The notes under the pieces are model-generated. The model made no database searches, was not told the DNA's origin, and was given only the letters and a program-made list of their open reading frames with translations. The position numbers and the translations under genes are program-made. A DNA stretch of 64,000 bases from Atriophallophorus winterbourni. Lineage: Eukaryota; Platyhelminthes; Trematoda; Plagiorchiida; Microphallidae. How positions within the stretch are numbered: the stretch's first letter is position 1; each line of letters begins with the position of its first letter. The stretch lies in NCBI GenBank assembly GCA_013407085.1, contig JACCGJ010002714.1:80420-144419 (forward strand), in the 5' to 3' direction. Below, piece by piece: positions 6,454-60,274 of the stretch.

Positions 6454-6459
6454 GCTCGC

Positions 6460-9243
6460 TACACACTAAAACCACTGTTAAATGCCTATACACAAATGCA
6501 CAGTGCTTGCGGAGCAAAATCGCCGAATTATCCCATTTTAACGCTCAGTTTTCTGCTGACATCATTGCTATTACCGAAACATGGTTCTACGATCAGGTGA
6601 ATGATTGCGAGTTGGCACTTCCCAACATGATCCTACTTCGACGAGACCGTTCAAGATCAGGTGGTGGAGTTGCTTTGTATTATAACGAGCGTCTTCAATG
6701 CACAGCTGTACCTGACACAACGTTTGAGCTCGAGGACACCATGTGGTGTAGCCTTTTCTTGGAAACTGGATAGAACTGTATACTTGGTGTTATCTACCGC
6801 TCGCCCAACTCTTCCGATGCCCACAATGAAACGTTGTTACAAATGATGCGCAACGCTGGAAACCTTAGAGGATGCCAATTGTTAATAATGGGTGATTTTA
6901 ACCTCCCACATCTCTACACCAAAAGTGTGCATACTCAGCAATCCCTTGAGTACAAATTCCGTGAGATAATCACTTTTACTCCCCTAAACAACCATGTCCG
7001 TTCATTCACTCGACAAAGGGAACTCAATGAACCATCAATTCTAGATCTGGTTTCAACCTCCGAAGCAACAGCAGTGGAGTCAGTGCAGTATCATAGTCCT
7101 TTGGGGCTAAGTGACCATCTTGTGTTGTCCTTCGAATTCGTGTGCAACCCCCGAAGGGCGTCGGGCGACGTTAAGTTCATCAGGAGAGTCGATTACTTCG
7201 GCCTTCGCGGAGGAAAAACATCTCGATCTAACGAATGCAGATACTCATTGTTCTAGTCTGTTAAGTTATATCGGTACAAAACTAGACGAAAATTCTACCT
7301 GTGTTCCCAAAAGAAAATCAAGAACATTTTGCTTCAAACTCCGAAGCCGCACTCGGAAGTGGATAGCCATGCGAAACTCCGCATGGGCTGCACATAAAAT
7401 AACACGAACAGACGCATCTTGGGAACACTTTCGTAGTTTTCGTAACAAGGTGACGTCCTTAATTCGAGAAGACAAGCAATATCACCATTTTAAGCTGATC
7501 GACCAGATGGAACGACATCCTAAGTTGCTGTACACCATCGTAAACACCGCGACCAAGGTTAAACCAGGTGTATTTCCTATCCAGACAGAGAACGGACTGA
7601 CTGATAATGTCAAGGATACAGCTGATTCCCTAATATCATTTTATGCGCAAGTATTTTGTCCAAAGAACGTGTCAACGCTGACGTCTTTGCCGCACCCACT
7701 ACAAGTCGAATGCCTTAGCAACATCGAGGTAAATCCTACGGTTGTGCGAAAGCATCTACGCCGGCTGAACGTTCACAAATCACCATCAGAGGATGGAATA
7801 ACACCCGCTGTTCTAAAGTCATGCGAGCTGGAGCTTTGTGGCCCACTAAGTGGTCTATTCAGGCACTCATTGAATACGGGAACCGTACCAACTCAATGGA
7901 AAACCGGTGTTATCACACCAATCTACAAAGGGGGCAGTCGTTCTGATCCGGCGAATTACCGCCCCGTGACGCTTCTTTCAGCGGTTTCTAAAATTTTGGA
8001 ACGCCTGGTGTGTGAACGACTTGTTGAACATCTCGAGAACCATCAGCTAATAACTTTCACACAACACGGATTTAGGAAAACATATTCATGCCTGTCTAAC
8101 TTACTCACGACTCTAAATGACTGGACGCAAGCACTAGACCAAGGGGGTTTCGTTCATGCCGGTTACTTAGATATATCTAAAGCATTCGACAGAGTGAATC
8201 ACTCCTTACTGCTTCAGAAGCTGCAGAATGTTGGCGTCATCGGAAACCTACTAACATGGTTCACAAGTTACCTGTCTGGACGCAAAGTAAAAGTCAGAAT
8301 AGATGGTGAAACTTCTCGAACAATTGAAGCCACGAGCGGAGTCCCTCAGGGTTCGGTTCTCGGTCCGATACTGTTTCTCTTATTTATAAATGACCTACCG
8401 AACTTACTAGCATGTAAGCTTGTTTTATTCGCAGACGACGTAAAAATCTGGACGAAGGTCAACTCTATCGAGGACTGTCAAGTTCTGCAAGGAGATTTGA
8501 ATAAACTGCACCAGTGGTCAATCCAAAACAAACTGCCATTTAATTTCCGCAAGTGCAAAATGTTGCAAGTCGGAAAACCCTTTCCCTTTCCCTATACACT
8601 TGGCAGCCACCCGCTTGAATGGAGTACATCACAAAAAGATCTCGGAATCTTGGTGTCTGGCACTTTGAAGAACAGCCTACAGTGCGAAGCCGTCTACAAG
8701 CGTGCGTGCAGCTTGCTAGGTTTACTGAAACGCATTTTCGGACGTTTCCCACCACACTCACTCGTGAAATTACTAAACACTTACATACATCCTGTCGTTG
8801 ACTACGCTGTACAAGCTTGGACGCCATGGATGGAAAAAAACATCTCGCTCCTCGAACGAATTTATCACAAGGCAACCAAAACGGTTACCGGATTGAATAA
8901 TTTACCCTTTGAGCAGCGACTGACCAGACTTGGACTGTGCACCCTCGAGCGCAGACGTATCCTACACGAACTCACTCTGACATATCGAATCATCTACGCG
9001 AAATCCCACCCTCTCAAACACCTCTTCAAGTTTCGTTCCGTTGTCCCCACACGCAGCCACCCTTTGACCCTTCAAATCCCACACTCACGATTGAATTGTC
9101 GTCGTCACTTCTTCGCTGTTCGTGTATGCTTCTTGTGGAATAGCTTGCCGATAGATATTGTTACCTCATCGAACGAGCACATCTTTAAACAAAGGTTACG
9201 AAACCTTATGTTGAGAACTACTGCGTTGGCCCCTACCTATTGA
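6460..9243 (+). pseudogene. LINE 2 ORF2: endonuclease and reverse transcriptase, broken
   Basis: The endonuclease (TNAQ, TETW, GVIYR, GDFNLP, SDH) and reverse transcriptase (FADD, GVPQGSVLGPILF) are both present. Two lesions break it. A TAG at 6771-6773 replaces a sense codon. A 17-bp deletion between 7210 and 7211 shifts the frame; the bases missing here are still present in the related fragment at about 21828-21844. From about 7211 to 9243 the frame is open through the whole reverse transcriptase. The start is uncertain because no good upstream ATG is in frame. Confidence 0.88.
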
Positions 9244-9437
9244 TGTCTATAAAATTTTAACGCACGGAACTACCGTCCATCCAAAGATTCTTTTCCCTCA
9301 GTCTGTGTTGCCATTGAGGATTATTTTTGCTCCACCTATGAAGAACATGGACATGATCATACAAGTAACGATTTTTTTTATAATTTTTTATACGTATATC
9401 CTATGGTATTGTACAGCAATTTGCTTTTTTAACCATA

Positions 9438-9456
9438 AATCTTGAATCTTGAATCT
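9438..9456 (+). repeat. 3' tail of LINE 2
   Basis: Two to three copies of the 7-bp period TTGAATC end the element. hh240 sequence (AAGTGCAG) resumes directly after it. Confidence 0.85.
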
Positions 9457-10356
9457 AAGTGCAGATATGTAAGCAACACATCATATTGGTCCTCCGCAAG
9501 CGCCTAAAGTAATCGACCACGAAACACTATGTGATTCTGAGTTCTGAACGTGTGTTGTGGGAACGCTGTAACAGTGATATTCAATATAACCTAGTTCTGC
9601 ATTTATCCGCTGTTTCAAGGCTCATTGAAACTGGTTTTTCTGTCTCCACCTGATGAGGTCAAACAACCAGAATCATGGAGTGATATGTAACTGCCACTGA
9701 TGTAAGCAAAACAAGACTTTGGGCATCCATACGGCTCTGGAGAGCTTTAAACGAATCACTATGTGATTCTGTGTTTGAACATAGCGGTTCTTTGTACGAA
9801 CCATATACAACAGTGGCATTCAAGTATAACCTTGTTTACGATTTATCTACGGTTTTCAAGGCTCACTGAACTCAATCTCATTGTCCCAACCAGATGACAG
9901 CAAACAGCCAGAAACCCGTAGTGCAGTGTTATTGCGAGGATGTAACCAACACATTTCTTTGGTCATCCTTAAGCGCCTCGAACGCTCAACCACGAATCAC
10001 TATGTATTTCTGAGTTTGAACATCTCGTCCGTTATAGGAACGCTGTGTAACAGTGGCATTCAAGTATAACCTTGTTCAGCATTTATCAGCTGTTTCAAGG
10101 CTCATTAAAACTGATTTTACAGTATCCACCTTATGACGGCAAACAGCCAGATACCGGTAGTCGTGTGTAACTGCGAATGATGCGAGCGAAGCATTACTTT
10201 GATTATATTCAGGCGCCTCCGAAGCTAGAATACCAATCACTACGTGATTCTGTGCTTAAACATAGTTGTTCGTTGTAAGAAATATATGTAACAGTGGCTT
10301 TTACGTATAACCTTTTTACAATTTAGCCACTGTTTCAAGTCTCATTGAAAATAATA

Positions 10357-10410
10357 TTACTTTATCCACCTGATGACGTCGAACAGCCAGAAACCGGTAG
10401 TGGTGTGTAA
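10357..10410 (+). ncRNA. hh240 hammerhead ribozyme, well-preserved copy
   Basis: Type I hammerhead layout: CUGAUGA (370-376), a weak stem II with a short loop, GAAA (390-393), then CCGG-U-A with cleavage expected after A399. Stem I pairs CCAC (366-369) with GUGG (400-403), and beyond an internal loop UUAC (357-360) pairs with GUAA (407-410). Helix III is the palindrome ACCGGU and needs a second copy to pair. Stem II is weak in this unit, so activity may be low. Confidence 0.6.
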
Positions 10411-10595
10411 GTTCGGGGATCTGAGCATCATATTACTTATGTCATCCATAAGCGCCTTGAGTGCTCGACCACGAATCACTATGTGATTCTCTGTGAGAAC
10501 ATCGTGATTCGTTGCACGATCCCAATGCAGCAATGGCATTTAAGTATAACCTTGTTTACCATTTATCCACTGTTTCAACGCTCAATGATCCTAAT

Positions 10596-10651
10596 CTTAC
10601 TATCTCCACCTGATGAGGGCAAAGAGCCAGAAGCCGGTAGTGGAGTGTAAG
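10596..10651 (+). ncRNA. hh240 hammerhead ribozyme copy with a G15.1 change
   Basis: CUGAUGA at 610-616, stem II GGC with GCC, and stem I CCAC with GUGG plus an outer 5-bp helix CUUAC (596-600) with GUAAG (647-651). GAAA has become GAAG, turning the A15.1-U16.1 pair into G-U. The two-part stem I with an internal loop is best seen here. Confidence 0.5.
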
Positions 10652-10891
10652 TTCGGGGGATGTGAGCAACATATTACTTTGGTCTTCCATAATCGCTTTG
10701 AGTACTTCACCAGGAATCACTTTGTGATTCTGCGTTTGAACATTGTGGTTCGTTGTAGGAACACTATGCAACAGTGGCATTCAAGTATAACCTTCTTTAC
10801 CATTTATCCACTGTTTCTAGACTCACTGAAACTGATCTTACTGTCTCCACCTGACGATGGCAAACAGCGAGAAACCGGTAGTGCAGTGTAA

Positions 10892-11774
10892 AGGATGGGT
10901 CGTGTGGGATTATTGCCGCGATTAATGTCTTCGAAGACCAGTTTCCTCAAATAATATACTACATGATTTCTGTTTGTCTGAGTTATCTGTATGAAAATGG
11001 ACAAGTTATTCCCAATTATGAAGCATCCAGAGGGCTTACGAAGCACACCGGCCGAAAGCAATACATAGGATTAGTTTTGTTTACGTCGATCAGGATGACA
11101 TTGGCTGTAAAAGAAATATGATCATGAATCCGAAGTCTTTTTTCGCTTTGCAATCTAAAAATATATAATTTCTTTACCAAAAGCAATTAAAGCTGACTAT
11201 GGTCTCCTATCAATGCAAAAACAATCTTTAGTCTATGTCACATTTAATCATTCAACACTGTCGATTGACGTTCCATGTGAATTTTTTTGAGTTGACAATG
11301 AAATCTTCGAACAGGACTCTACCCGAAGTGAGTGAAGCTTCGGTTTAGCATGACGAGAATTGCCTTCGGGATTTGTACGAATTGTATTGAGGGCGCTTGT
11401 TTTATGATTGTAAAATTGATCGAGGCTATGTACCGAGAATGTGTGCTAGTTTTGCGGTAATGCTTGATATGATAGCATTGGTTGACTTTCGTTAAACTGA
11501 AGTTTTTACATTTCAATCTACTTTCTGTGACAAACAGTCCAATTATTGGACGTAGGATGATAATGATGATGATGTTAAATGGTTAAATGAAAAACTGTCT
11601 AATGATTGGTATTTCATTGCTAAGATAACACAGTCAGTGTTCATTGCTTTAGATAAAATGATTATATATGTTTTGATTGCAAATTGAAGAAAGCCTTCGC
11701 ATTCATTATCATATTTCTCTTATAGCACACTTCGAGTAAAATCAGTTGCAAAGATCCTTGGAACAGTGGTAAAG
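10892..11774. other. Fragments of the BTB-like repeat block in both orientations
   Basis: About 11120-11520 resembles 47720-47930 (same orientation), and about 11570-11730 resembles 36120-36250 (opposite direction relative to the block). 10892-11110 is unassigned AT-rich sequence. No intact gene is seen. Confidence 0.5.
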
Positions 11775-16639: not shown

Positions 16640-17002
16640 TAAATGTAACCAATTATATACTGCTTCAAGTCTTAATGAACCTAATCTTACTGCGTCCACC
16701 TGATGACGGCAAAGAGCCAGAAACCAATCGTGGTGTGTAAGTGCGGGCGACGTGAGCAACGCATAACTTTGGTAATCCATAATCGCCTTGAAAGCTTAAT
16801 CACGAATCACTACGTGATTCTCAGTTTGAACATCGTGTTTCGTTGTACGAACCCTATGTATAGGAAAAATTCAACTCTAAACTTGTTCATAATTTATCCT
16901 TTGTTTCAAGGCCCACTGAATTTAATCTCACTGTTTCCACCTAATGACGGCAAACAGCCAGAAACTGGTAGTGGTGTGTAAGTGCGAAGAATGTGCGCAA
17001 CA
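16640..17002 (+). repeat. hh240 units, interrupted by the short LINE
   Basis: Two hammerhead-like segments are visible, at about 16691-16740 (helix III lost: CCAAT replaces CCGGT) and 16940-16985 (CUAAUGA core change). The repeat is cut at GTGCGCAACA and resumes at 19144. Confidence 0.8.
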
Positions 17003-17334
17003 ATACTGGCGTGGGGTCGCATTTTTGTTGTTCTGACACTTTTGCCCGTTTCTTCACCAAATCAACTCGGATTTTAACCGTTCAAAAACTTTTTGCTATA
17101 CTTTGACGAGAGCTATCGGAATTTATACGTTTTGAGCTGGTCCGTCGATTAACAGCAAATTTACCGTTTCAACGTAAATATATCGGTTTGCTCACGCGTG
17201 CAAACTTTCTCCCACAGTTAAGTATCGTACGGTTTATGCTTTCATTGCAAAGATCACATCGAACTACACATTTTGATACGCCATTCTGTGCTCTACTCTG
17301 TGTGGTTATTGAGTTATCACGGATTATTCGCAAA

Positions 17335-19019: not shown

Positions 19020-19143
19020 AGCAACACGAACCCAAAAAACATTAACAATGTGATTTTGATTGATTTTTTTTCGCAATAGTTGTCATCCAATGGTACGTGT
19101 AAAGCATTAGTTTTTATCACCATAAATATTGATTCTTGATTCT

Positions 19144-19371
19144 TGGTCATCCTCAAGCGCCTCAAGTTCTTGACCACGAAACACTACGTAATTTCGAGTT
19201 TGAACTTCGTGGTCCGTTGTACAATCACCATGTATCAGTGTCATTCAAGTATAACATTGGTTACCGTTTATCCACTGTTTCAAGGCTCCTTGAAACCAAC
19301 CTCAATATCTCCACCTGATGACGGCAAACAGCCAGAAACCGGTAGTGGTGTGGAAGTGTGGGAAATGGTTC
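19144..19371 (+). repeat. hh240 unit
   Basis: Continuation of the unit cut at 17002. It carries one hammerhead with a perfect core and ends where an RTE-like 5' end (GGTTCCAAAGGTTGT) begins. Confidence 0.85.
19311..19348 (+). ncRNA. hh240 hammerhead ribozyme with intact core
   Basis: CCAC (311-314), CUGAUGA (315-321), stem II GGC/GCC with loop AAACA and a C-A mismatch at its base, GAAA (335-338), CCGG, U343, cleavage after A344, GUGG (345-348). All core residues are canonical. The outer part of stem I has decayed here. Confidence 0.6.
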
Positions 19372-22059: not shown

Positions 22060-23197
22060 AATGAAATAGACTGAGCATTTCATGCCTCAGTGGAAAAATA
22101 CAACGAATTTGAGCAGCATTGGGGGACAGCCTATCAGATCGAGCATTTCAAAATAGACCCAATAACCAACAACTTCGGTCTTGCTCATGCTGGTTTTTTG
22201 CCCAAATGCATTGCAAGCTGACAAGAAACAGTACATTAGCGTTTTGAGGTTCTCTTGGGAGTGAACAATAAATGCTGCATCGACGGCAAACAGCGGGTCT
22301 CGGATAAGCACATCTCGTGCAATGGTTTTGTCCTCTCAATTTATTCAGTTTTACAAGCTTGCCATCTCTCTATGTGCGTAGGTAAATGGCTTGTGTCCTG
22401 GTCCCGAGAATGTGCTTGAGATGCGACGAGAAGCATACACAAAAAGCGTTTGAGCAAGCCCACACTTAGTTGACGCCTTGATTGATTTCAAATGCGTCGA
22501 AACTGAAACCATTAAAATAGACTGAGCCCTTCATGCCGGCGTTGAACAAAATAACGCGTTAAACCAGTCTTGAGAACAACCTATGAGATTGAACATTTTG
22601 AAAAGTCGTTACCTGCTGACGTGGTCCAAACCATTCGTTAAATCAATAAAACATCCTATTATGTCGTTCCCGACACTCCTCTTGAAGTTGTCTCATGGAA
22701 AAGATCATGTCAACGGTTAATCTTTTCTTGCAAAAGCCACATTGAAATTCGTAGTAAATACTGTCCGCTAAAATTTGTAGTTGGATCTGCAAGACTTCAG
22801 CAAACAGTTTGCCTACAAAATACAGAAGGGAGAATCATTCGTAATTGTTGCATACGACTATATAACCGTTATATTTACATATATTGATGATCTTCGTGTA
22901 TTGAACCTCTTGTGGGACCGGCTCATTCAGCTAGCCATGAAGAAGCGAATTATGAACATGTTGTAATGATGCTTCTCTGCAGCATTTAGTGAGCTCAGGT
23001 GATTGTTGTCGCCACTATAACCCTTCCTTTTCGCTTATCTGTCGATTATATCTAGAGATTCAATGGTTGGCAACCGTTTGACATTTTCAAGTGCATGCGT
23101 TAGAACCGTACTGTCCCTGAAGTAGAGAAATGAAGGATCCTCTACCCATCTTTCCATCTGTTGAGTTTTGTCGACAATAGGGTTATTAGATACAGAC
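22060..23197 (-). pseudogene. RTE-like reverse transcriptase, 3' half
   Basis: The frame 22087-22311 (minus) reads LIRDPLFAVDAAFIVHSQENL and then LSACNAFGQKTSMSKTEV, the RTE-clade version of the catalytic region (usually LLFADDAA). FADD has become FAVD. It is frameshifted relative to the overlapping frame 22148-22339. Confidence 0.7.
23190..23197. repeat. Target-site duplication, left copy (ATACAGAC)
   Basis: The same 8 bp occur at 27886-27893, directly outside the other end of the array. The homologous RTE copy near 50830 has one corresponding ATACTAAC. Confidence 0.75.
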
Positions 23198-23427
23198 AAA
23201 CCTCGAAACCGGTCCTGTGCTTCCGGTGAGATTTGAGCGTTTCGGAATGGTATTCTACTTCGAACTAGCCTGGGGTTGTAATAACCCTCGCGGTAACAGG
23301 CCGTTCGATCAGTTGGGGCTTAGTTTAGTCCCTTCAGCTACTTATAAAGTAGCGAGTAGACGCGAACTTCGATTCACATTGCGCCATCCGTCTACACAAA
23401 TACTAGTTCGAAACGCGAAGAGTCCAG

Positions 23428-23482
23428 CGGATACGCATAGCTGATGAGAGGCAAAAACCTCGAAACCGGTCCTGTGCTTCCG
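23428..23482 (+). ncRNA. Hammerhead ribozyme, array copy 1 (reference copy)
   Basis: Type I layout. Stem I: CGG (428-430) with CCG (480-482), internal loop AUAC/UU, then GCAUAG with CUGUGC. Core CUGAUGA (441-447), stem II GAGG/CCUC with loop CAAAAA, GAAA, helix III ACCGGU, and C17 at 471. All invariant core residues are present. Helix III has no loop and is self-complementary, so it can only form between two molecules or two units. Loop II and the stem I internal loop are placed where natural hammerheads make their tertiary contact. Confidence 0.88.
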
Positions 23483-23684
23483 GTGAGATTTTAGCGTTTC
23501 GGAATGGTATTCTACTCCGAACTAGCCTGGGGTTGTAATAACCCTCGCGGCAACAGGCCGTTCGATCAGTTGGGGCTTAGTTTAGTCCCTTCAGCTACTT
23601 ATAAAGTAGCGAGTAGACGCGAACTTCGATTCACATTGCGCCATCCGTCTACACAAATACTAGTTCGAAACGCGAAGAGTCCAG

Positions 23685-23739
23685 CGGATACGCATAGCTG
23701 ATGAGAGGCAAAAACCTCGAAACCGGTCCTGTGCTTCCG
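23685..23739 (+). ncRNA. Hammerhead ribozyme, array copy 2
   Basis: Same as the reference copy; C17 at 23728. Confidence 0.87.
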
Positions 23740-23941
23740 GTGAGATTTTAGCGTTTCGGAATGGTATTCTACTTCGAACTAGCCTGGGGTTGTAATAACC
23801 CTCGCGGCAACAGGCCGTTCGATCAGTTGGGGCTTAGTTTAGTCCCTTCAGCTACTTATAAAGTAGCGAGTAGACGCGAACTTCGATTCACATTGCGCCA
23901 TCCGTCTACACAAATACTAGTTCGAAACGCGAAGAGTCCAG

Positions 23942-23996
23942 CGGATACGCATAGCTGATGAGAGGCAAAAACCTCGAAACCGGTCCTGTGCTTCCG
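23942..23996 (+). ncRNA. Hammerhead ribozyme, array copy 3
   Basis: Same as the reference copy; C17 at 23985. Confidence 0.87.
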
Positions 23997-24198
23997 GTGA
24001 GATTTTAGCGTTTCGGAATGGTATTCTACTTCGAACTAGCCTGGGGTTGTAATAACCCTCGCGGCAACAGGCCGTTCGATCAGTTGGGGCTTAGTTTAGT
24101 CCCTTCAGCTACTTATAAAGTAGCGAGTAGACGCGAACTTCGATTCACATTGCGCCATCCGTCTACACAAATACTAGTTCGAAACGCGAAGAGTCCAG

Positions 24199-24253
24199 CG
24201 GATATGCATAGCTGATGAGAGGCAAAATCCTCGAAACCGGTCCGGTGCTTCCG
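24199..24253 (+). ncRNA. Hammerhead ribozyme, array copy 4, weakened stem I
   Basis: Core intact; loop II is CAAAAU. CUGUGC has become CGGUGC, giving one mismatch in stem I, and the internal loop AUAC is AUAU. C17 at 24242. Confidence 0.75.
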
Positions 24254-24455
24254 GTGAGATTTTAGCGTTTCGGAATGGTATTCTACTTCAAACTAGCCTG
24301 GGGTTGTAATAACCCTCGCGGCAACAGGCCGTTCGATCAGTTGGGGCTTAGATTAGTCCCTTCAGCTACATATAAAGTAGCGAGTAGACGCGAACTTCGA
24401 TTCACATTGCGCCATCCGTGTACACAAAAACTAATTCGAAACGCGAAGAGTCCAG

Positions 24456-24510
24456 CGGATACGCATAGCTGATGAGAGGCAAAAACCTCGAAACCGGTCC
24501 TGTGCTTCCG
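24456..24510 (+). ncRNA. Hammerhead ribozyme, array copy 5
   Basis: Same as the reference copy; C17 at 24499. Confidence 0.87.
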
Positions 24511-24710
24511 GTGAGATTTTAGCGTTTCGGAATGGTATTCTACTTCGAACTAGCCTGGGGTTGTAATAACCCTCGCGGCAACAGGCCGTTCGATCAGTTG
24601 GGCTTAGTTTAGTCCCTTCAGCTACTTATAAAGTAGCGAGTAGACGCGAACTTCGATTCACATTGCGCATCCGTCTACACAAATACTAGTTCGAAACGCG
24701 AAGAGTCCAG

Positions 24711-24764
24711 CGGATACGCATAGCTGATGAGAGGCAAAACCTCGAAACCGGTCCTGTGCTTCCG
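24711..24764 (+). ncRNA. Hammerhead ribozyme, array copy 6
   Basis: Core intact; loop II is one base shorter (CAAAA). C17 at 24753. Confidence 0.85.
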
Positions 24765-24966
24765 GTGAGATTTTAGCGTTTCGGAATGGTATTCTACTTC
24801 GAACTAGCCTGGGGTTGTAATAACCCTCGCGGCAACAGGCCGTTCGATCAGTTGGGGCTTAGTTTAGTCCCTTCAGCTACTTATAAAGTAGCGAGTAGAC
24901 GCGAACTTCGATTCACATTGCGCCATCCGTCTACACAAATACTAGTTCGAAACGCGAAGAGTCCAG

Positions 24967-25021
24967 CGGATACGCATAGCTGATGAGAGGCAAAAACCTC
25001 GAAACCGGTCCTGTGCTTCCG
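24967..25021 (+). ncRNA. Hammerhead ribozyme, array copy 7
   Basis: Same as the reference copy; C17 at 25010. Confidence 0.87.
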
Positions 25022-25222
25022 GTGAGATTTTAGCGTTTCGGAATGGTATTCTACTTCGAACTAGCCTGGGGTTGTAATAACCCTCGCGGCAACAGGCCGT
25101 TCGATCAGTTGGGCTTAGTTTAGTCCCTTCAGCTACTTATAAAGTAGCGAGTAGACGCGAACTTCGATTCACATTGCGCCATCCGTCTACACAAATACTA
25201 GTTCGAAACGCGAAGAGTCCAG

Positions 25223-25276
25223 CGGATACGCATAGCTGATGAGAGGCAAAACCTCGAAACCGGTCCTGTGCTTCCG
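25223..25276 (+). ncRNA. Hammerhead ribozyme, array copy 8
   Basis: Core intact; loop II is CAAAA. C17 at 25265. Confidence 0.85.
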
Positions 25277-25478
25277 GTGAGATTTTAGCGTTTCGGAATG
25301 GTATTCTACTTCGAACTAGCCTGGGGTTGTAATAACCCTCGCGGCAACAGGCCGTTCGATCAGTTGGGGCTTAGTTTAGTCCCTTCAGCTACTTATAAAG
25401 TAGCGAGTAGACGCGAACTTCGATTCACATTGCGCCATCCGTCTACACAAATACTAGTTCGAAACGCGAAGAGTCCAG

Positions 25479-25533
25479 CGGATACGCATAGCTGATGAGA
25501 GGCAAAAACCTCAAAACCGGTCCTGTGCTTCCG
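25479..25533 (+). ncRNA. Hammerhead, array copy 9, probably inactive
   Basis: G12 of the GAAA core is A. This base acts in general-base catalysis, so cleavage should be lost. C17 at 25522. Confidence 0.7.
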
Positions 25534-25735
25534 GTGAGATTTTAGCGTTTCGGAATGGTATTCTACTTCGAACTAGCCTGGGGTTGTAATAACCCTCGCA
25601 AAAACAGGCCGTTCGATCAGTTGGGGCTTAGTTCAGTCCCTTCAGCTACTTATAAAGTAGCGAGTAGACGCGAACTTCGATTCACATTGCGCCATCCGTT
25701 TACACAAATACTAGTTCGAAACGCGAAGAGTCCAG

Positions 25736-25790
25736 CGAATACGCATAGCTGATTAGAGGCAAAAACCTCGAAACCGGTCCTGTGCTTCCG
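25736..25790 (+). ncRNA. Hammerhead, array copy 10, probably inactive
   Basis: G8 of CUGAUGA is U (CUGAUUA); G8 is the general-acid residue. C17 at 25779. Confidence 0.7.
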
Positions 25791-25992
25791 GTGAGATTTT
25801 AGCGTTTCGGAATGGTATTCTACTTCGAACTAGCCTGGGGTTGTAATAACCCTCGCGGAAACAGGCCGTTCGATCAGTTGGAGCTTAGTTTAGTCCCTTC
25901 AGCTACTTAAAAAGTAGCGAGTAGACGCGAACTTCGATTCACATTGCGCCATCCGTCTACACAAATACTAGTTCGAAACGCGAAGAGTCCAG

Positions 25993-26047
25993 CGGATACG
26001 CATAGATGATGAGAGGCAAAAAACCTCGAAAACGGTCCTGTGTTCCG
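25993..26047 (+). ncRNA. Hammerhead, array copy 11, probably inactive
   Basis: C3 is A (AUGAUGA), breaking the C3-G8 pair, and helix III ACCGGU has become AACGGU. C17 at 26037. Confidence 0.7.
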
Positions 26048-26249
26048 GTGAAATTTTTGCGTTTCGGAATGGTATTCTACTTCGAACTAGCCTGGGGTTG
26101 TAATAACCCTCGCGGTAACAGGCCGTTCGATCAGTTGGGGCTTAGTTTAGTCCCTTCAGCTACTTATAAAGTAGCGAGTAGACGCGAACTTCGATTCACA
26201 TTGCGCCATCCGTCTACACAAATAGTAGTTCGAAACGCGAAGAGTCCAG

Positions 26250-26304
26250 CGGATACGCATAGCTGATGAGAGGCAAAAACCTCGAAACCGGTCCTGTGCT
26301 TCCG
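26250..26304 (+). ncRNA. Hammerhead ribozyme, array copy 12
   Basis: Same as the reference copy; C17 at 26293. Confidence 0.87.
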
Positions 26305-26506
26305 GTGAGATTTTAGCGTTTCGGAATGGTATTCTACTTCGAACTAGCCTGGGGTTGTAATAACCCTCGCGGCAACAGGCCGTTCGATCAGTTGGGGCTT
26401 AGTTTAGTCCCTTCAGCTACTTATAAATTAGCGAGTAGACGCGAACTTCGATTCACATTGCGCCATCCGTGTACACAAATACTAGTTCGAAACGCGAAGA
26501 GTCCAG

Positions 26507-26561
26507 CGGATACGCATAGCTGATGAGAGGCAAAAACCTCGAAACCGGTCCTGTGCTTCCG
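26507..26561 (+). ncRNA. Hammerhead ribozyme, array copy 13
   Basis: Same core and stems as the reference copy; C17 at 26550. Confidence 0.87.
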
Positions 26562-26763
26562 GTGAGATCTTAGCGTTTCGGAATGGTATTCTACTTCGAA
26601 CTAGCATTGGGTTGTAATAACCCTCGCGGCAACAGGCCGTTCGATCAGTTTTGGCTTAGTTTAGTCCCTTCAGCTACTTATAAAGTAGCGAGTAGACGCG
26701 AACTTCGATTAACATTGCGCCATCCGTCTACACAAATACTAGTTCGAAACGCGAAGAGTCCAG

Positions 26764-26818
26764 CAGATACGCATAGCTGATGAGAGGCAAAAACCTCTAA
26801 ACCGGTCCTGTCCTTCCG
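26764..26818 (+). ncRNA. Hammerhead, array copy 14, probably inactive
   Basis: G12 is U (UAAA), the outer CGG is CAG, and CUGUGC is CUGUCC. C17 at 26807. Confidence 0.7.
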
Positions 26819-27020
26819 GTGAGATTTTAGCGTTTCGGAATGGTATTCTACTTCGAACTAGCCTGGGGTTGTAATAACCCTCGCGGCAACAGGCCGTTCG
26901 ATCAGTTGGGGCTTAGTTTAGTCCCTTCAGCTACATATAAAGTAGCGAGTAGACGCGAACTTCGATTCACATTACGCCATCCGTCTACACAAAAACTAGT
27001 TCGAAACGCGAAGAGTCCAG

Positions 27021-27075
27021 CGGATACGCATAGCTGATGAGAGGCAAAAACCTCGAAACCGGTCCTGTGCTTCCG
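27021..27075 (+). ncRNA. Hammerhead ribozyme, array copy 15
   Basis: Same as the reference copy; C17 at 27064. Confidence 0.87.
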
Positions 27076-27277
27076 GTGAGATTTTAGCGTTTCGGAATGG
27101 TATTCTACTTCGATCTAGCCTGGGGTTGTAATAACCCTCGCGGCAACAGGCCGTTCGATCAGTTGGGGCTTAGTTTAGTCCCTTCAGCTACTTATAAAGT
27201 AGTGAGTAGACGCGAACTTCGATTCACATTGCGCCATCCGTCTACACAAATAGTAGTTCGAAACGCGAAGAGTCCAG

Positions 27278-27333
27278 CGGATACGCATAGCTGATGAGAG
27301 GCAAAAAACCTCGAAACCGGTCTTGTGCCTCCG
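27278..27333 (+). ncRNA. Hammerhead ribozyme, array copy 16
   Basis: Core intact; loop II is one A longer, and the base after C17 (27322) is U, turning the first stem I pair into G-U. Confidence 0.8.
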
Positions 27334-27535
27334 AAGAGATTTTAGCGTTTCGGAATGGTATTCTACTTCGAACTAGCCTGGGGTTGTAATAACCCTCGCA
27401 AAAACAGGCCGTTCGATCAGTTGGGGCTTAGTTCAGTCCCTTCAGCTACTTATAAAGTAGCGAGTAGACGCGAACTTCGATTCACATTTCGCCATCCGTC
27501 TACACAAATACTAGTTCGAAACGCGAAGAGTCCAG

Positions 27536-27590
27536 CGGATACGCATAGCAGATGAGAGGCAAAACCCTCGAAACCGGTCCTGTGCTTCCG
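27536..27590 (+). ncRNA. Hammerhead, array copy 17, probably inactive
   Basis: U4 is A (CAGAUGA), a core change. C17 at 27579. Confidence 0.65.
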
Positions 27591-27792
27591 GTGAGATTTT
27601 AGCGTTTCGGAATGGTATTCTACTTCAAACTAGCCTGGGGTTGTAATAACCCTCGCGGCAACAGGCCGTTCGATCAGTTTTGGCTTAGTTTAGTCCCTTC
27701 AGCTACTTATAAAGTAGCGAGTAGACGCGAACTTCGATTCACATTGCCCCATCCGTCTACACAAATAATAGTTCGAAACGCGAAGAGTCCAG

Positions 27793-27847
27793 CGGATACG
27801 CATAGCTGATGAGAGGCAAAAACCTCGAAACCGGTCCTGTGCTTCCG
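27793..27847 (+). ncRNA. Hammerhead ribozyme, array copy 18
   Basis: Same as the reference copy; C17 at 27836. It is the last complete ribozyme before the array ends. Confidence 0.87.
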
Positions 27848-27885
27848 GTGAGATTTTAGCGTTTCGGAATGGTATTCTACTTCGA

Positions 27886-27893
27886 ATACAGAC
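27886..27893. repeat. Target-site duplication, right copy (ATACAGAC)
   Basis: Pairs with 23190-23197. RTE sequence resumes here, followed by a short (TTTG)n stretch at about 27900-27919. Confidence 0.75.
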
Positions 27894-29320: not shown

Positions 29321-29885
29321 GACCTAAAATTCTCTCCCTCGTCAGAGGCAGATGGTATCCGCTGCTTCCCGCGTGATTATCCGTAGAAGCGGAATAGAGT
29401 GTCCTCTCCATTGGTGCGTTGTGATGTACGTCAGGGCAGTTCAAAATAAAGAACTAGCTGTTGCTCATGCAGCAAGGGCTCCCTCTCTACGGCACCACCG
29501 CAACCAAAGAAACAGCTAGGTTGATTCGTTTGGACAACGATGCAGTCACAGAAGCTGGCAGGACGACGTTGAATAATCTTCGGACTGCTTAACGGTATTC
29601 TGGCTCTCTAGGTTGAGTCATGAAGCCTTTTCTACGATCGGATGTAGCCGAAAAGCAGTGGAGGTTTAAGATAATGGTTTTTCTTCCCCATGCCTGTTTT
29701 CAGGCGCCAGTCAGCCGTGTCCGCCCTTTTCCCTGTCAGTAGAAGCAGTTCCGCCGGGTCACACTGGACAACACGTGCAGGCCAGGAGCTGGATTGGTTG
29801 TCTTATGCTATATGAGACGCGTGCAATTGGAGCATTTTTGGAATTGAGAGATTATCCCCAAAACCGCACCGGCTTTTACAACCTT
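29321..29885 (-). mobile_element. RTE-like 5' region
   Basis: On the minus strand it begins GGTTCCAAGGTTGT at 29885 and is related to 19372-19744 and to 46690-47090 on its minus strand. It lies directly upstream of the RTE endonuclease remnant and borders hh240 sequence. No intact ORF is seen. Confidence 0.55.
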
Positions 29886-31345
29886 GGAACCAGTGGCGAT
29901 AATGTAAAACCTTGTCAATCATTTATTCTCTGATTTAAGGCTCACAAAAACTAATCTTACTGTATTTTCGTGATGAAAGCTAACAGCCAATAACCGGTAG
30001 TTATGTGCAAGTGCAGGGGATGTGAGCAACACACATTACGTTCTTCACACATATAGGCCCTCGAGTGCTTGACCAGGAACAACTACGTGATTATGTGTTT
30101 CAACATCGTGGTATTTATGTATAATCTTGTTTACCATTTATCCACTGTTTCAAGTCTCACTAAACCTAATGTTACTGTTTCCACCTGATGACATGAAACA
30201 TCCAGAAACCAGTAGTGGTGTGAAGTGCGGCAGTTGGGGGCAACACATTAATTGGTTTTGCATAAGCGCCTCGAGTGGTCGACCACCAATTACTATGTTC
30301 AGTTTGACATCGAAGTCCGTTTTAAAAACCCTATGTAACAGAGTCATTGAAGAATGACCTTGATCAGCGTTTATTCAGACTCTGTCACAAGGCTCACTGA
30401 ACCTAATCTCAATGTGTCTAACTGACTCAAAATGATTCAAAGTTGTAATGGTCGAAAAAGCATTTAGCTTAACAATAACCATAGGATGAAGTTATGAGGT
30501 ATATACAATAAAAAAGAAGAACAGGGAAACTCATGTAGTGTAAATCGTATCAATCCAAACAGCCGGAAAACGGTAGTGGTAAGTGCGGGGCGTGTGAGAA
30601 ATAAATTACTTTGGTCATCCATAAGCGCCTAGAGTGCTTGACCACCACGAATCACTACGTGATTCTGTGTTTGAACAGCCCGCTCCGTTGAGCGAAACGT
30701 ATGTAACAGTGGCATTCAAGTACAACCTTGTTTAAAAATTAAAAACTGTTTCAAGTCTTCTTGAAACTAATCTCAATGTCTCCACCGGATAACAGCAATT
30801 AGCCAGAAATCGGTGGTGGGGTGCATGTGCGGAACGTGTGAGCAACACATTACTTTGGTCATCCATAAGCGCCTTGATTGCTCGACCACAATTCACTATG
30901 TGATTCCGTGTTTGAACATCGTGGTTCATAGTACGATCCCTGTTTAATACTGGCATTTAAATATAACCTGATTTATAATTCATTCTCTGTTTCAAGGCTC
31001 ACTAAAACTAATCTTACTGTTTCCAGCGAATGACAGCAAAAACCCAGAAACCAGTAGTGGTGTGTAAGTGCGGGTGATGTGAGCAACACAGTACTTTGTT
31101 TATTCATGAGCGCCTCGAGTGATGGACCAGAAATCACTATGTGATTTTGTATTGGAACATCCTGGTTCGTTGTAACAGTGACATTCAAGTATAACCTTGT
31201 TTAGCATTTAAACACTGTTTCAAGTCTCACTGAAACTAATCTTACTGTATCCACCTAATGCCGCCAATCAGTTAGAAAATGGTAGTGGTGTGTATTTGCA
31301 CAAGATGTGAGCAACACATTACTTTGGTTATCCATAAGCTTCTTG
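29886..31345 (+). repeat. hh240 tandem cluster, about six units
   Basis: Hammerhead-like segments lie at about 29970, 30188, 30565, 30790, 31030 and 31260, all with one or more core changes (for example CGAAUGA at about 31027, CUAAUGC at about 31254). Hairpins such as GAATCACTACGTGATTC are conserved. A 125-bp LINE end is inserted at 30428-30552. Confidence 0.8.
30428..30552 (-). mobile_element. Very short 5'-truncated CR1 insertion
   Basis: About 125 bp nearly identical to 41105-41229, the 3' end of the nested LINE, in the same orientation, including the ATTCAAAG tail. It lies in the middle of an hh240 hammerhead block. It is a dead-on-arrival LINE copy. Confidence 0.85.
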
Positions 31346-31559
31346 AGTGAATGTAGTGCCCAAGAAAATTAAACTGTCATGCTCTGAGAGTCAAGTTAAA
31401 AAGCGCTAGTTTCGCACAAATGGTTTACTCTGTAGGCGCTCTATCTTACAAAACCTGGAATTATTATGAGAGAAATATTCAATGTTTGGTTTGAAGGAAT
31501 CTGTTTAACTGAGTTGTTTTTTGCAGCGAAGCAAAAATAATCATTAGATGAAACAAAAT
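31346..31559. other. Unassigned
   Basis: AT-rich sequence between the hh240 cluster and the LINE remnant; nothing recognisable. Confidence 0.4.
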
Positions 31560-38244: not shown

Positions 38245-39814
38245 AGATAGCAAACTGTCAGAAGCTGTCATGCGCAGCTCTCGGAACCTTTATCTCGTCT
38301 GTTTAACGAATTGCTTCAAGTTGGAATGGTACCAATCGATTGGAAGCTGGGACTAATTACACCAATTTACTAAAGTGGATGCCGTTCTGAAGTGAAAAAT
38401 TACAGGCCTGTGACATTTCTGTCTTTGGTTTCAAAGGTTTTTGAGCGCATAATCACTGCAGAAGTAGTGCGCTACCATGGAATCATACGGACTCTTGACA
38501 ATTACCCAACATGGATTTCACAGAAACCGCTCTTGTCTGACTAATTTGGTGACATGTTCGGACTACTGGGCTTGTGTAATGGACGCTGGAGGCAGTATTC
38601 ATGCATGCTACCTTGACATTTCTAAAGCTTTTGACAGAGTTGATCACAACTTACTGCTGAACAAGCTAAAGAAACACGGTATTGCTGGAGGACCGTATGA
38701 CTTGTTGCGAGACTATCTCAGCAAAAGACACATACGGGTTCGAGTTGACGGTATACAATCGAAGGAAATCGACGTCACTAGCGGTGTTCCACAGGGATCC
38801 GTGCTTGGACCGATACAGTTTCTGATTTATATGAATGACCTGCAAACACCACGCGGCATTAAGATGGTTCTGTTCGCAGGCGACATAAAAATCTGGAAAA
38901 AATCAGCACTGCCGAGGATTGCAGTGTGCTTCAAAGTGACTTGGATGCTGTGCGAACGTGGTTATCTGAAAATAACCTACATGCAGAAGTCTCGAATCAT
39001 GCACATCGGTCGTGTACTTAGCTTTTCTCATTCATGCAAGCTTTGTAACAATATCCTGGAGTACACCAAAGAAGAAAAAGTCCTGGGTGTCTGGATTTGC
39101 GGTAGCCTGAAAAATGGTCTACAATGCGAAGCGGTTTACAAACGCGCGTCTCGGATGCTCGGTGTGTTAAGGCGGATATTCGGACGTTTTTCCCAGAGCT
39201 GTTTTTCTCTGATGATGAACACGTACATACACCCGCTTATTGATTGCGCTTCACAAGCCTGGACCACATGGCTCCTAAAAGACATTTAACTATTGGATCG
39301 CATATATCACAGAGCCTTAAAGTTGGTCATTGGGCTCGAAAACCTACCATTCGCCGACCGACTAAGTAAACAGAAGCTGACGACACTTGCACAAAGGAGA
39401 CTGCGAGCCGACCTCCTCCTCACATTCAAAATCCTTAACAATGTTTCCCACCCTTTGGATATACTATTTCACCGACGAACATCAAGCAACAACCGCGGTC
39501 ACAACTGCGAGTTGGAAATATCCCACTCCAATCAGAACTGCCGCAGGTATTTTTATGCTGTGCGTATTTGTTTCGCTTGGAATTCCCTGCCAGCCAATTT
39601 GGTGAGCTTGAACACTTTTTCTATGTTTAAATTAAAACTGGACGATTTCCTGAGAGCTAATCCAAACTATTTATAATCTATCGTTAACAGAATTATTTTG
39701 ATTTTGAAATTTTTCCACACACATATACACATATACACTTGTACCTATAGTTCAACTGCATGGTTATTATAAAGTAATTGCTTTTTCAACCATAAAATCT
39801 TGAATCTTGAATCT
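38245..39814 (+). mobile_element. 5'-truncated CR1-like element, 3' half of ORF2
   Basis: It starts within the reverse transcriptase, continues to the end of ORF2 and ends in a (TTGAATC) tail at 39795-39814, directly against hh240 sequence. A close inverted relative lies at 62930-64000. Confidence 0.85.
38300..39676 (+). pseudogene. Reverse transcriptase C-terminal half, broken
   Basis: QHGFHRNRSCLTNL, YLDISKAFDRVDH and GVPQGSVLGPIQFL are clear. The catalytic FADD reads FAGD. One A is missing in the run after TGG near 38897, shifting the frame, and an 8-nt deletion near 38978 restores it; an in-frame TAA at 39287-39289 follows. The FAGD change and the 1-nt loss are shared with the copy at 62930-64000. 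Confidence 0.85.
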
Positions 39815-40925
39815 CGAGATTCACATAGTGATTTATTCTCGAGCACTCGAGACGCCTATGGATAACCAAATAATGTGGTGCCAACAAACGCCACACTTAC
39901 ACACCACAACCGGTATCTGGTTGTTTGAGGTTGTTAGGTTGAGACAGCAAGATTAGTTTCAGTGAGACTTGAAACAGTGCATAAATGGTTAACAATGTTA
40001 TACTTAAATACCACTGTTACATAGGGTTCGTATTAAGAACCACGAAGTTGAAATACAGAATCATATGATAAATCGCACTCGAAGAGCTTATGGATTACCA
40101 AATTATTTTGTGGCTCAAATAACCCGCACGTACACACCACTACCGGTTTCTGGCTGTTGGCCGTCATCAGGTGGAGACAGAGTGGCAAGTTTAGGTATGC
40201 ATTGAAACAGTGGATAATGGCTAAGCAAAGTTTTACATAAAAGCCACGGTTACAAAGTATTCGTATATACAACCACGACGTTCGAACACAGAATCACTTT
40301 GTAATTCGTGGTAGAGCACTCGAGACGCTTACATATATAACCAAAGTGATGTGTTGCTCACATATCCCTTACTAAAAACTACTACCGGTGTCCGGCAGTT
40401 CAGCTTCATCAGGTGGAGACAGTAAGATAAGGTACAGTTAGCCATGGAAAAGTGTTTATATTTTAAACAAGGTTAACATTAAAAGCCACTGTTGCATAGG
40501 GTTCGTACACGAACCACGATGTTCAAACACAGAATCGCATAGTGATTCGTGGTCGAGCAGATGAGGCGCTTGAGGATTACCGAAGTAATGTGTTGTTCAC
40601 ATCTCCCGCACTTACTCACCAATTCCTGGTTCTGGCTGTTTGGCGTTCTCAGGTAGAGACAGTAAGAATAGTTACAGTGAGCCATGAAACAGTGAATAAA
40701 TGCTGACAAGGTTATACTTGAATGCCACTGTTACATAGGAGTCGTATAACGAACGTAGATGTTCAAACACAGAATCACATTGTGCAGTGTGGTGTAGCAA
40801 TTGAATCGCTTATAGATCACCATTGAAATGTGTTTTTCACATCCGCCGCGCTTGAACAACAGTGCCAAAAGCTAGCTATTTGCTGTCATCAGGTTGAGAC
40901 AGTAAGATTACGTACAGTGAACCAT
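39815..40925 (-). repeat. hh240 tandem cluster, about five units
   Basis: Hammerhead-like segments on the minus strand lie near 39925, 40150, 40395, 40635 and 40880. The best is at 40137-40174. The block AATGCCACTGTTACATAGG recurs in each unit. Confidence 0.82.
40131..40174 (-). ncRNA. hh240 hammerhead ribozyme with intact core, minus strand
   Basis: CCAC (174-171), CUGAUGA (170-164), stem II of GGC with GCC, GAAA, CCGG, U142, cleavage after A141, GUGG (140-137). Helix III is again ACCGGU. The stem II loop is slightly altered (CAACA). Confidence 0.55.
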
Positions 40926-41090
40926 AAAGAAGAATCAAGAATCAAGAATCAAGAATCAAGATTTATGGTGATAAAAAGCTAATGCTTTACACGTACCATT
41001 GGATGACAACTATTGCGGAAAAAAATTTAATCAAAATCACATTGTTAATGTTTTTTGGGTTCATGTTGCTTCAATACACCGGGCCAAATT

Positions 41091-43959
41091 CAAAGTGATT
41101 CAAAGTGATTCAAAGTTGTAATGGTCTAAAAAGCATTTAGCTTAACAATAACCATAGGATGGAGTTATGAGGTATATACAATAAAAAAGAAGAACAGGAA
41201 AACTCATGTAGTGTAAATCGTATCAAAGTTTGGGTTGTCTCTCAAGTATTTGTCCAAATTAGCTTTAAAAATATCCAGGTTGGCTGAGTGTGTAACAGTG
41301 GAGGGGAGGGTGTTCCATGTGAAACTTACACGTACAGCATACGAATATCTTCGACAGTTCAGTCTTGAAGTGGGAATAAGCACTGAAAGTTCATGTTTCC
41401 GACTGGCACGGGGTGGCGAGCGTGTGAAAAGTTTGGACAAGGGATGGTTAGGGACGTGCATAATATTGTACATCAGTATGAGGTCACCTCTTAGTCGACG
41501 ACAGCGAAAGTCGAAAAGATTGAGACTCCTCAAACGTTCTTCATATGGTTTAGCAGCTAGTCCGGGTACAAGCTTTGTGGTTCGGTGGTAAATACGCTGC
41601 AGAAGATTGATGTCTTTCTGAATCCAGGGTGACCAAGCCTGAACAGCGTACTCCATCGCTGGTCTCAGATAGGTGTTCATGATACGGGGCACCGACTGAT
41701 TGGAGAATCTGCCGAAAATTCGTCTCAATAACGCCAATACTTGTGACGCCTTTTTGTATGCCGCTTTGCACTGCAGTGAAGTCTTCAGACTTGAACTGGT
41801 CCAAACACCCAAATCCTTCTCTTCAGTTGTCCAGACGAGTTGGTGGGACCCAAGAGTGTAGTTGTAATTAACAGTCTTTCCAATGTTTAACGCCTTGCAC
41901 TTTTGGAAGTTGAATGGTAGTTTGTTTCTCAAAGACCAATCTTGCAATGTGTTTAGATCCTTCTGCAAAGTTTCACAGTCATCATTGGTACGTATGCTTC
42001 TCCAAAGCTTTATATCGTCTGCAAATAACATAATCTTGCATTTAACACGCTCGGGAATGTCGTTTGCGTAGATCAAAAACAAAATCGGTCCGAGGACCGA
42101 ACCCTGGGGCACTCCGCTCGTAATTTTGAATGGTTTCGATAAGGCGCCGTCAACTCTGACTTGGGCACTCCTGTCGCGTAAATAGTTTTCTAGCCAAGCA
42201 AGAAGTTTTCCTGTTATCCCGTGCAATTCAAGTTTCTGGATTAAAATACTATGATTGACGCGGTCGAAAGCCTTTGACATGTCTAAAAAGCATGCGTGGA
42301 TGGAGTAACCATTGTCCACACACTCAGTCCAGTCGTTTAAGGTGAGCAAGAGGTTAGATAGACATGAGTGATGTTTCCTGAAACCGTGCTGTTCAGTCGC
42401 AAGCAGTCTATTGTTTTCGAGGTGATGGGTGATCTTTTCCGCTACTAAACTCTCTAGCACTTTAGAAATTACTGGCAACAACGTAACTGGTCTATAGTTC
42501 GCAGCGTCAGATCGACTCCCGCCCTTGTAGATTGGTGTGATGATACCAGATTTCCATTCCGCGGGAACGATACTATTTTCGAGCGAAATTTGGAATAATG
42601 TGCTGAGTGGACCACACAATGAGGATGCGCATCGTTTGAGGATAAAAGGAGTGATTCCATCTGCTCCTGGTGACTTTGCGGTATTCAAACGAAGAAGTTT
42701 GAGCATGACACACTCATTGTTTATTGAGATTTCATTTAGTATTTCATTGGAAAAGCCAATCGAATGCGGTGTAAGATGCACTGATTCCTTGGGGCAAAAC
42801 ACTTTGCAGTAGTAACCTGCAAGAACTTCGGCAGCCTCGAACGCAGTCGTAGTTAGACCATTTGGTGTGCGTAGTGCTGAGATTCCTGGCTTAATTTTTG
42901 ATGTAGTGTTAACGATCTGGTACAGGACTTTGGGGTTCCGCTCCATCATGGTCAGTAGTCTTGCCTGATGAGACTGCTTATCCTCGGTGATAAGAGAGGT
43001 GACCTTGTTCCTCAACAGACGATATGTTTCCCAATTATCTGGCATCGGATTGTGGACATAGTTTCTCCATGCATCGTTGCGTATCTTAATCCACTTCCTT
43101 GTGCGGCTTCTCAACGTGAAGGTAAATCGTTTTTTCGCTGTCTGTGGCACAAGTCTGGAATGTAGGTTTATTTCATCACACAGCTTCTCTGTGAAGTTTA
43201 CCCAAGAACGATGCACGTCCGTGGTGTCTGGTTTCCAGTCAGAAATCGTTCGAAGAGCATTTTGAAGACTTCCAATATCCAGTTGTAGTTTTGTTTTGTT
43301 GATGTCATTCGTTCTCTCAGCTTGACAAACATAATCGAATAAGAGGACCAGGTGGTCGCTAGAACCCAATGGAGTTTCGTAGCTCAGATTTTCGACGGCA
43401 TGTTCCTCACTCGTTAGTATTAGATCCAGGACAGATGGCATGTTACCATCTCTATATCTAGTGTTATCGAAGACGTGGTTATAAAAAGGAATATCGAAGA
43501 TCAGTTCTTGAAACGCCTCGTCGAGCGAATTCGTTGAAAGAGCATTATTCTTCATCAAGTTTGGAAGGTTGAAGTCTCCCATAACCAGGAGTGGCGATTG
43601 AAATCTGGCAGCCAGAAGTCGAATTTTCTGGAGTAGTTCAACATTGTGCGCATCACTTGCGCTTGGAGCCCGATAAATCACGCCAATAATACAATCATCT
43701 CCGGTAGTCTGCTTAATTGAGCACCACAGAGTATCCTGTACACGTAGGTCAATATCGTCAATTTCTCTGCAGGATAACTGTTGGTTGTAGTAAAGTGCTA
43801 CGCCACCGCCGCGTCCCAAACGGTCTTGACGGAGAAGACACATTCCTTTTAATGCCAATTCATTGTCTGATAAGTGAGGTTCAAACCATGTTTCGGTAAT
43901 TGCAACTAAGTCCGGTGAGTGCTGTGTACATACGGTATCAAGCTCCTGTATTTTGTTTC
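41091..43959 (-). mobile_element. Nested CR1-like element, slightly 5'-truncated
   Basis: It is inserted into the last codons of the host ORF2 remnant: host sequence reads AAACCCTGA up to 43960 and resumes ATTTGGCCCGG at 41090. It ends with the (TTTGAATCAC) tail type of LINE 1. Truncation is just inside the endonuclease. Confidence 0.85.

Positions 43960-60236: not shown

Positions 60237-60274
<38 letters not shown>
60236..60274. repeat. (TA)n microsatellite
   Basis: About 38 bp of TA, at the junction of hh240 sequence and the dispersed block. Confidence 0.95.

Follow-up and report, generated by a model that had tools for sequence, protein, structure and literature searches.

The window analysed here, a stretch of 64,000 nucleotides from the trematode Atriophallophorus winterbourni (assembly GCA_013407085.1, contig JACCGJ010002714.1, positions 80,420 to 144,419 of the forward strand), holds a tandem array of a hammerhead-bearing repeat of the retrozyme kind, set among copies of long interspersed nuclear elements (LINEs) and of a second, 240-bp repeat family (Table 1). 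The array runs from 23198 to 27885 on the forward strand and comprises 18.25 head-to-tail units of 257 bp each, as determined by unit alignment. Tandem Repeats Finder (TRF) placed it at 23198–27886 with a period of 257, 18.3 copies and a 97% match; the end at 27885 is the boundary set by a target-site duplication. The original prediction for this DNA had proposed an 18-unit, 257-bp satellite in which every unit encodes a type I hammerhead ribozyme, and both the array and its hammerheads were confirmed. The units belong to a single subfamily, with the variants they have in common scattered among distant units. Unit similarity within the array was flat with respect to lag, a measure that would mark the copying of multi-unit blocks, and a plain inverted-repeat search returned only two overlapping 14-mers.

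The term satellite proved misleading: the element occurs as dispersed insertions, here with a duplicated target site and with paralogous sites that are empty. The array lies within a dispersed repeat and is flanked on both sides by the 8-bp sequence ATACAGAC. When the two flanks are joined, they align across the join to locus L039 (73%, 542 nt), where ATACAGAC occurs once, and to locus L023 (72%, 539 nt), where the site is slightly altered. Because ATACAGAC is duplicated around the array and an uninterrupted copy of the repeat holds it once, the array is a single insertion and not an ordinary satellite.

Table 1. Retrozyme array, target-site duplication, LINEs and 240-bp repeats in the window.
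Feature	Position	Strand	Basis
Tandem array, 18.25 retrozyme units	23198–27885	+	TRF, unit alignment, duplication-set boundaries
Target-site duplication (8 bp), left copy, ATACAGAC	23190–23197	.	Single copy at the empty site in L039
Target-site duplication (8 bp), right copy, ATACAGAC	27886–27893	.	Single copy at the empty site in L039
Predicted cut (after C17) of the first, 5'-truncated hammerhead; unit position 1 = 23215	23214–23215	+	Sequence and inference from hammerhead chemistry
Typical hammerhead copy: stem I CGGA..CAUAG / CUGUG..UCCG, CUGAUGA, GAGG-CAAAAA-CCUC, GAAA, loopless CCGG, cut after GUC	23680–23751	+	Rfam HH9 alignment, sequence
Partial unit closing the array, with its end at 3' site A (unit position 49)	27839–27885	+	
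LINE with open reading frame 1 (ORF1, 44111–45820) and ORF2 (endonuclease and reverse transcriptase, 41207–44020)	41207–45820	−	Pfam PF00078, PF03372, PF14529
Additional LINE reading frame, open over 980 codons, with domains for endonuclease and reverse transcriptase	497–3439	+	
Members of the 240-bp family	9431–10906, 16644–17007, 19143–19367, 29874–31350, 39803–40948, 45879–46533, 47084–47675, 60264–61366		

We number the unit from the first base after the predicted cut, which corresponds to 23215 in the window. Stem I is formed by CAUAG (222–226) with CUGUG (1–5) and by CGGA (214–217) with UCCG (8–11). CUGAUGA (227–233), stem II GAGG/CCUC (234–237/244–247), GAAA (248–251) and CCGG (252–255) follow, and the unit closes with UC. 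When all 18 sites were read out, CUGAUGA, GAAA and the GUC triplet were together kept at 13, which is exactly the proportion that had been claimed; the five hammerheads with a core change are those listed at 25481, 25737, 25995, 26766 and 27538. An additional, 5'-truncated hammerhead stands at the array start, beyond these 18. A covariance search with the Rfam hammerhead models, which the original prediction had put forward as a check, matched RF02275 (Hammerhead_HH9) at 18 of 18 sites (E values of 1.7e-7 to 0.18 over the whole window, 1.7e-7 at eight sites), but every match lies below the gathering score: the best reaches 42.5 bits against a cut-off of 52, and at the gathering threshold Rfam returned nothing in the window. 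The scores fall short because the unit lacks all five positions that the model assigns to loop III. HH9-like loops are retained elsewhere, namely UAC in stem I and CAAAAA in loop II.

Stem III of this type I hammerhead is both loopless and palindromic (A-CCGG-U); the missing loop, like the duplicated ATACAGAC, had escaped the original prediction. With no loop to turn in, CCGG cannot pair with itself, and the classical ribozyme fold is impossible for a single unit; a CC/GG stem III with zero loop would need a partner hammerhead, which makes self-cleavage of one unit unlikely. The self-complementary ACCGGU could pair with the ACCGGU of a second hammerhead. In terms of this folding model, the working form of the ribozyme should be a dimer, and cleavage should need two hammerheads together. 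Other hammerheads with a weak stem III, those of newt among them, are known to work as dimers, as described in the relevant sections of PMC7229834. Folded as a circle, the unit is predicted to form a rod of −95.0 kcal/mol (z −6.1 versus 200 dinucleotide shuffles). It has a GC content of 49.0% (the retrozyme text in PMC7229834 gives <50% and its figure legend <45%) and is non-coding, with no stop-free stretch longer than 68 codons in the tripled unit.

Across the assembly (537 Mb, 15,840 contigs), an exact 31-nt core occurs in 960 copies (489 + 471) and a reversed control pattern in none (0 + 0), which excludes a chance origin of the core genome-wide. Viral contigs contained no exact cores. Searching with one unit yielded 692 initial candidates; 40 of these were scored and gave 296 matches. 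Two samples were drawn. The first consists of 31 loci from the best matches; those listed, a part of the 296, lie on 35 contigs, of which three with a match at the contig end were skipped and one was the window. The second consists of 10 of the 47 contigs listed with exact cores (three were already in the first set), seven of them as single cores, while L046, L047 and L048 were chosen with neighbouring opposite-strand cores visible. The analysis of array ends covers these 41 further loci and the window, with L001–L008 standing outside it. In total, 45 insertions were parsed. Pieces more than 60 bp apart were counted as separate insertions (in L035, a (+) array precedes a (−+) pair by 135 bp), and ends beside N or no more than 25 bp from the edge of a locus were excluded. 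The arrays are dispersed and many are short, with a median of 2.7 units among those parsed, and their ends are not long terminal repeats (LTRs).

Duplication of the target is a recurrent property of these insertions. An exact duplication of at least 8 nt (8–14) was found in 10 of 27 complete insertions versus 2 of 702 mismatched flank pairs (Fisher's test, 4.9e-14); this test covered 27 of the 28 complete insertions, and a 51-bp fragment in L021 was omitted there and kept in the end counts. The joined flanks of the 28 insertions gave a spanning match for seven, of which five were clean (the window, L012, L020, L035 and L047). For L047, the joined flanks match a LINE copy of the window at 90% identity. 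The spanning matches of L030 and L042 were not clean. L030 resembles a fusion with the 240-bp family, but insertion into that family, with deletion of target sequence, is the better reading. Two insertions, L009 and L020, have their 3' junctions at one and the same ATACTGTCAGG site of a repeat family, with terminal bases that differ, which hints at a preferred nick site.

The two ends of the arrays behave differently. Outer 3' ends fall at unit positions 43–57 (site A) in 26 of 52 cases and at 162–173 (site B) in 21, whereas only 1 of 20 outer 5' ends lies in these windows (Fisher's test against the 47 of 52 3' ends, 6.6e-12). The outer 5' ends fit a uniform spread over the unit (Kolmogorov–Smirnov p 0.54). 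Neither kind of end is found within 5 nt of the hammerhead cut (0/52 and 0/20, respectively). With windows fixed before the second sample (43–53 and 156–171), 8 of the 15 ends from that sample fell inside, where 1.6 were expected (p 4.8e-5); the final windows of 43–57 and 162–173 were set afterwards and contain 12 of the 15. Duplications resolve 16 of the 3' junctions to the base, and of these the nine at site A end at 46–50 and the seven at site B end at 163–172. Microhomology of at least 2 nt, in which the first target bases match the next RNA bases, is present in 7 of the 16 resolved junctions versus 6% of random genomic stretches and 11% of other duplications.

Many insertions are double. 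In 12 of 28 complete insertions two arrays point outward, and tail-to-tail pairs were absent (0/28). Because the two arrays point away from each other, both outer ends of such an insertion are 3' ends, and 21 of these 24 ends lie inside the two 3'-end windows. Where both ends of an insertion do so, 8 of 10 use one site A and one site B (p 0.05). Six of the 12 head-to-head insertions have a duplication, and all six combine one A with one B. At the joins, the arms overlap by at least 2 nt (2–15 nt) in 8 of 13 cases, and the other five range from no overlap to a 23-nt filler. Judged by this geometry, the head-to-head pattern is the one expected from twin priming, in which each free target end would prime on the RNA and the two cDNAs would be joined. 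Like the hammerhead anatomy, the duplications, the empty sites, the two fixed 3' ends and the spread 5' ends, the head-to-head arrays can be read directly from the assembly.

Our preferred interpretation, to which we assign a probability of about three in four, is that the element is a non-LTR retrozyme of the non-autonomous kind and that its circular RNA is copied by target priming from two internal sites, often at both ends of the target. Cleavage, circularisation, the circular template and the enzyme are the steps that we infer. In the transcript of an array, neighbouring hammerheads would pair through a common 6-bp stem III (ACCGGU with ACCGGU) and cut each other to release 257-nt monomers, which a host ligase would close into circles, as published for other animals. 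A LINE-type endonuclease and reverse transcriptase would then nick the target, and the free DNA end would prime at site A (~46–50) or site B (~163–172) of the circle. By circling the template many times and dropping off anywhere, the enzyme would produce a long array whose 3' end is fixed and whose 5' end falls at random. The second target strand would often prime too, usually at the other site, with the two cDNAs joining head to head, and the insert would be closed with a target-site duplication of 8–14 bp. Rather probably, although we hold this part less firmly, the two internal starts are dedicated ones, one per free DNA end, such that two enzymes circling at once would build a double array within one duplication. 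If the account is correct, the genomic arrays are direct recordings of rolling-circle target-primed reverse transcription.

A number of observations weigh against this account. Five of the 52 3' ends lie outside both windows (at 7, 9, 13, 19 and 136), and two of these (7 and 9) together with three 5' ends (7, 9 and 9) come within 10 nt of the cut. Without L046, L047 and L048, the prior windows take in 3 of 9 ends of the second sample and the final windows 6 of 9, and the final windows then contain 41 of 46 3' ends from all loci. The choice of these three loci with opposite-strand cores visible also inflates the head-to-head share, which is 9 of 25 complete insertions without them. A duplication of at least 8 nt is lacking in 17 of 27 complete insertions, for which age, deletion or imprecise ends may be the causes, and one of the 10 that were found (L032) sits in an AT-rich simple repeat. 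The double hammerhead is disfavoured by nearest-neighbour energy, at −33.3 versus −53.4 kcal/mol for two free monomers, in models that leave out the ribozyme core and tertiary contacts. The rod fold has no support from covariation because double-change cells are too few: in the compensatory-change test 96.7% of cells were paired and just 6 were double changes.

Selection on the ribozyme is likewise not demonstrated. Over 343 near-full units from 32 loci, the hammerhead (54 positions) diverges by 0.018 per site and the rest of the unit by 0.055. None of the 16 sites that split the subfamilies falls within the 54 hammerhead positions (chance 0.02 under random placement), and once these sites are set apart the rest of the unit diverges by 0.024. 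The low divergence of the hammerhead, which we considered as a sign of selection, vanishes in this comparison because the non-subfamily rest is nearly as conserved. Finally, two main subfamilies are mixed in many arrays, and subfamily switches occur at 56 of 268 intervals between units and at 15 of 306 within units (these counts cover arrays of at least 400 bp and exclude 52 of 358 units and 47 of 315 neighbour pairs whose subfamily was ambiguous). Since the intervals compared are 146 nt between units and 65 nt within, the per-base excess of switching between units is only about twofold. The mixed arrays suggest template change during copying or later recombination.

The form of the RNA template is where the alternatives diverge most. 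In 355 rotated units, no join of position 257 to position 1 had an inserted base, and an insertion just before 257 was present in 0.8% of units, compared with a mean of 0.2% per site. The longest array, in L029, has at least 36.7 units and runs to the contig edge. Together with the fixed internal starts and random stops, such length and clean 257/1 joins fit a circular template, and by the position of the ends, fixed internally and away from the cut, a circle would suit better than linear 257-nt monomers. We consider it unlikely that the same retrozyme is instead copied by target-primed reverse transcription from internal sites of an uncut linear multimer, the read-through RNA of an array. Mosaic arrays would then be copies of mosaic parents, a hammerhead that works only as a dimer may cut poorly, and the target-site duplications would suit this template equally well; however, an array as long as that in L029 would require RNAs that survive dozens of largely intact hammerheads, and the existence of two start positions per unit, none within 5 nt of the cut, would be left unexplained.

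Much less probable still is that linear 257-nt monomers are joined end to end through template jumping of a non-LTR reverse transcriptase. Separate monomers would give the higher frequency of switches between units, and the two 3' and three 5' ends lying 7–9 nt past the cut are in keeping with them. Yet this scheme predicts ends at 257 or 1, and there are none within 5 nt of the cut, and it has to contend with a per-base switching excess of only twofold. Template jumping is known to leave extra bases, and the 257/1 joins have none. Least probable of all, and only slightly behind, is an ordinary satellite spread by unequal crossing-over or DNA circles with the hammerhead as a relic, which would suit the long arrays, the mosaic unit order, the 5 dead hammerheads of 18 and a hammerhead barely less divergent than the non-subfamily rest, but not dispersed and often short arrays with duplications, empty sites, ends fixed on one side only, and head-to-head without tail-to-tail pairs; the large blocks without insertion boundaries that define classical satellite DNA are not what we find.

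As the original prediction had noted, the element resembles the retrozymes of animals, and it appears to belong to this known kind while having a new integration footprint. Metazoan non-LTR retrozymes are described in PMC7229834, in the sections that treat them, as tandem repeats of 150–450 bp with a type I hammerhead, no LTR, many copies, target-site duplications of more than 4 bp and a strongly self-paired unit. The fluke element has a type I hammerhead with the core intact in most copies, dispersed 257-bp repeats, duplications above 4 bp, a non-coding unit and no LTR. It differs from the retrozymes of those sections in a wholly loopless stem III and in its mapped integration ends, two internal starts and head-to-head arrays. 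The axolotl retrozymes described there have units of 330–350 bp and a weak stem III of one or two base pairs with a tetraloop, and are efficient only as dimers; the fluke stem III has no loop.

Other comparisons are available from flukes and from Penelope-like elements. According to the parts of PMC8490949 that concern them, the W elements and SMalpha of Schistosoma mansoni are tandem repeats of a fluke that carry type I hammerheads, in which stem III is extremely short; in vitro functional evidence is reported for the W-element hammerheads, one W family is linked to the SMalpha elements, which resemble short interspersed nuclear elements, and one copy of W25.2 has a possible duplication. W36.2_W001 (335 bp) and W27.2 (403 bp) differ in length from the 257-bp unit, a comparison made by description only. 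In Penelope-like elements, as presented in the pertinent passages of PMC7761336, stem III of the minimal hammerheads is reduced or absent, so that cleavage occurs as dimers, and these hammerheads lack helix III or the contacts between stem I and II loops. The fluke unit keeps HH9-like loops. We considered a Penelope-like element with a minimal hammerhead and set it aside, given these loops and a longest stop-free stretch of 68 codons. The fluke ribozyme thus stands between the classical type, with loop contacts kept, and the minimal Penelope type, with stem III reduced.

The copying of circular RNA into tandem cDNA by target priming has been proposed as one possibility (Cervera & de la Pena 2020, PMC7229834), and in the sections of that work concerned with it the return of retrozyme circles to the genome is a proposal without mapped integration ends. 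The ends of the fluke arrays are sharp enough to name start sites and speak against a 3' end at the hammerhead cut, and the arrays show that both target strands often prime. In a literature search from which subscription journals are mostly missing, no paper joining retrozymes and twin priming was found among the matches listed; the terms retrozyme, target-primed reverse transcription and circular RNA co-occur in a paper on an LTR element. Pairing hammerheads with fluke names gave no relevant paper among the matches listed. The sharp array ends turn the return of the circles to the genome into a defined question: whether a LINE reverse transcriptase starts at these positions on a 257-nt circle.

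A LINE is the most natural helper, because LINE copies with endonuclease and reverse transcriptase abound in the window, several retrozymes are located inside or beside LINE ORFs, and 240-bp repeats flank the LINE ORFs. A LINE-type enzyme is therefore our candidate for mobilising the retrozyme. The two LINE copies flanked by these repeats are putatively of the CR1 type. A literature search joining hammerhead ribozymes and the CR1 retrotransposon returned no paper relating the two. The closest named relative of the intact ORF2 is from the lung fluke Paragonimus westermani, with 64% identity, which points to a digenean fluke as the probable host. Penelope-like enzymes are favoured in published work on retrozyme mobilisation, in the portions that discuss it.

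The LINE copies at 4383–10906 (+) and 39803–46533 (−) each have ORF1 and ORF2, that on the plus strand in several frames, and both are flanked by sense-oriented 240-bp repeats upstream of ORF1 and downstream of ORF2. These repeats constitute a separate family with a degenerate hammerhead (CTGATGA C GGC AAACA GCC A GAAACCGGTA), which again has CCGG without a loop as its stem III and in which the pair at the base of stem II is a mismatched C-A. No Rfam match to this hammerhead was obtained in the window, even at E<1. The CUGANGA..GAAA core is kept in 19 of 52 hits of the family over the window and the loci. One member, on the minus strand of L033 (1204–1271), has a fully paired stem II (GTGC/GCAC) with G-C at its base and a GTC triplet, and its core is canonical, unlike that of most copies of the 240-bp family.

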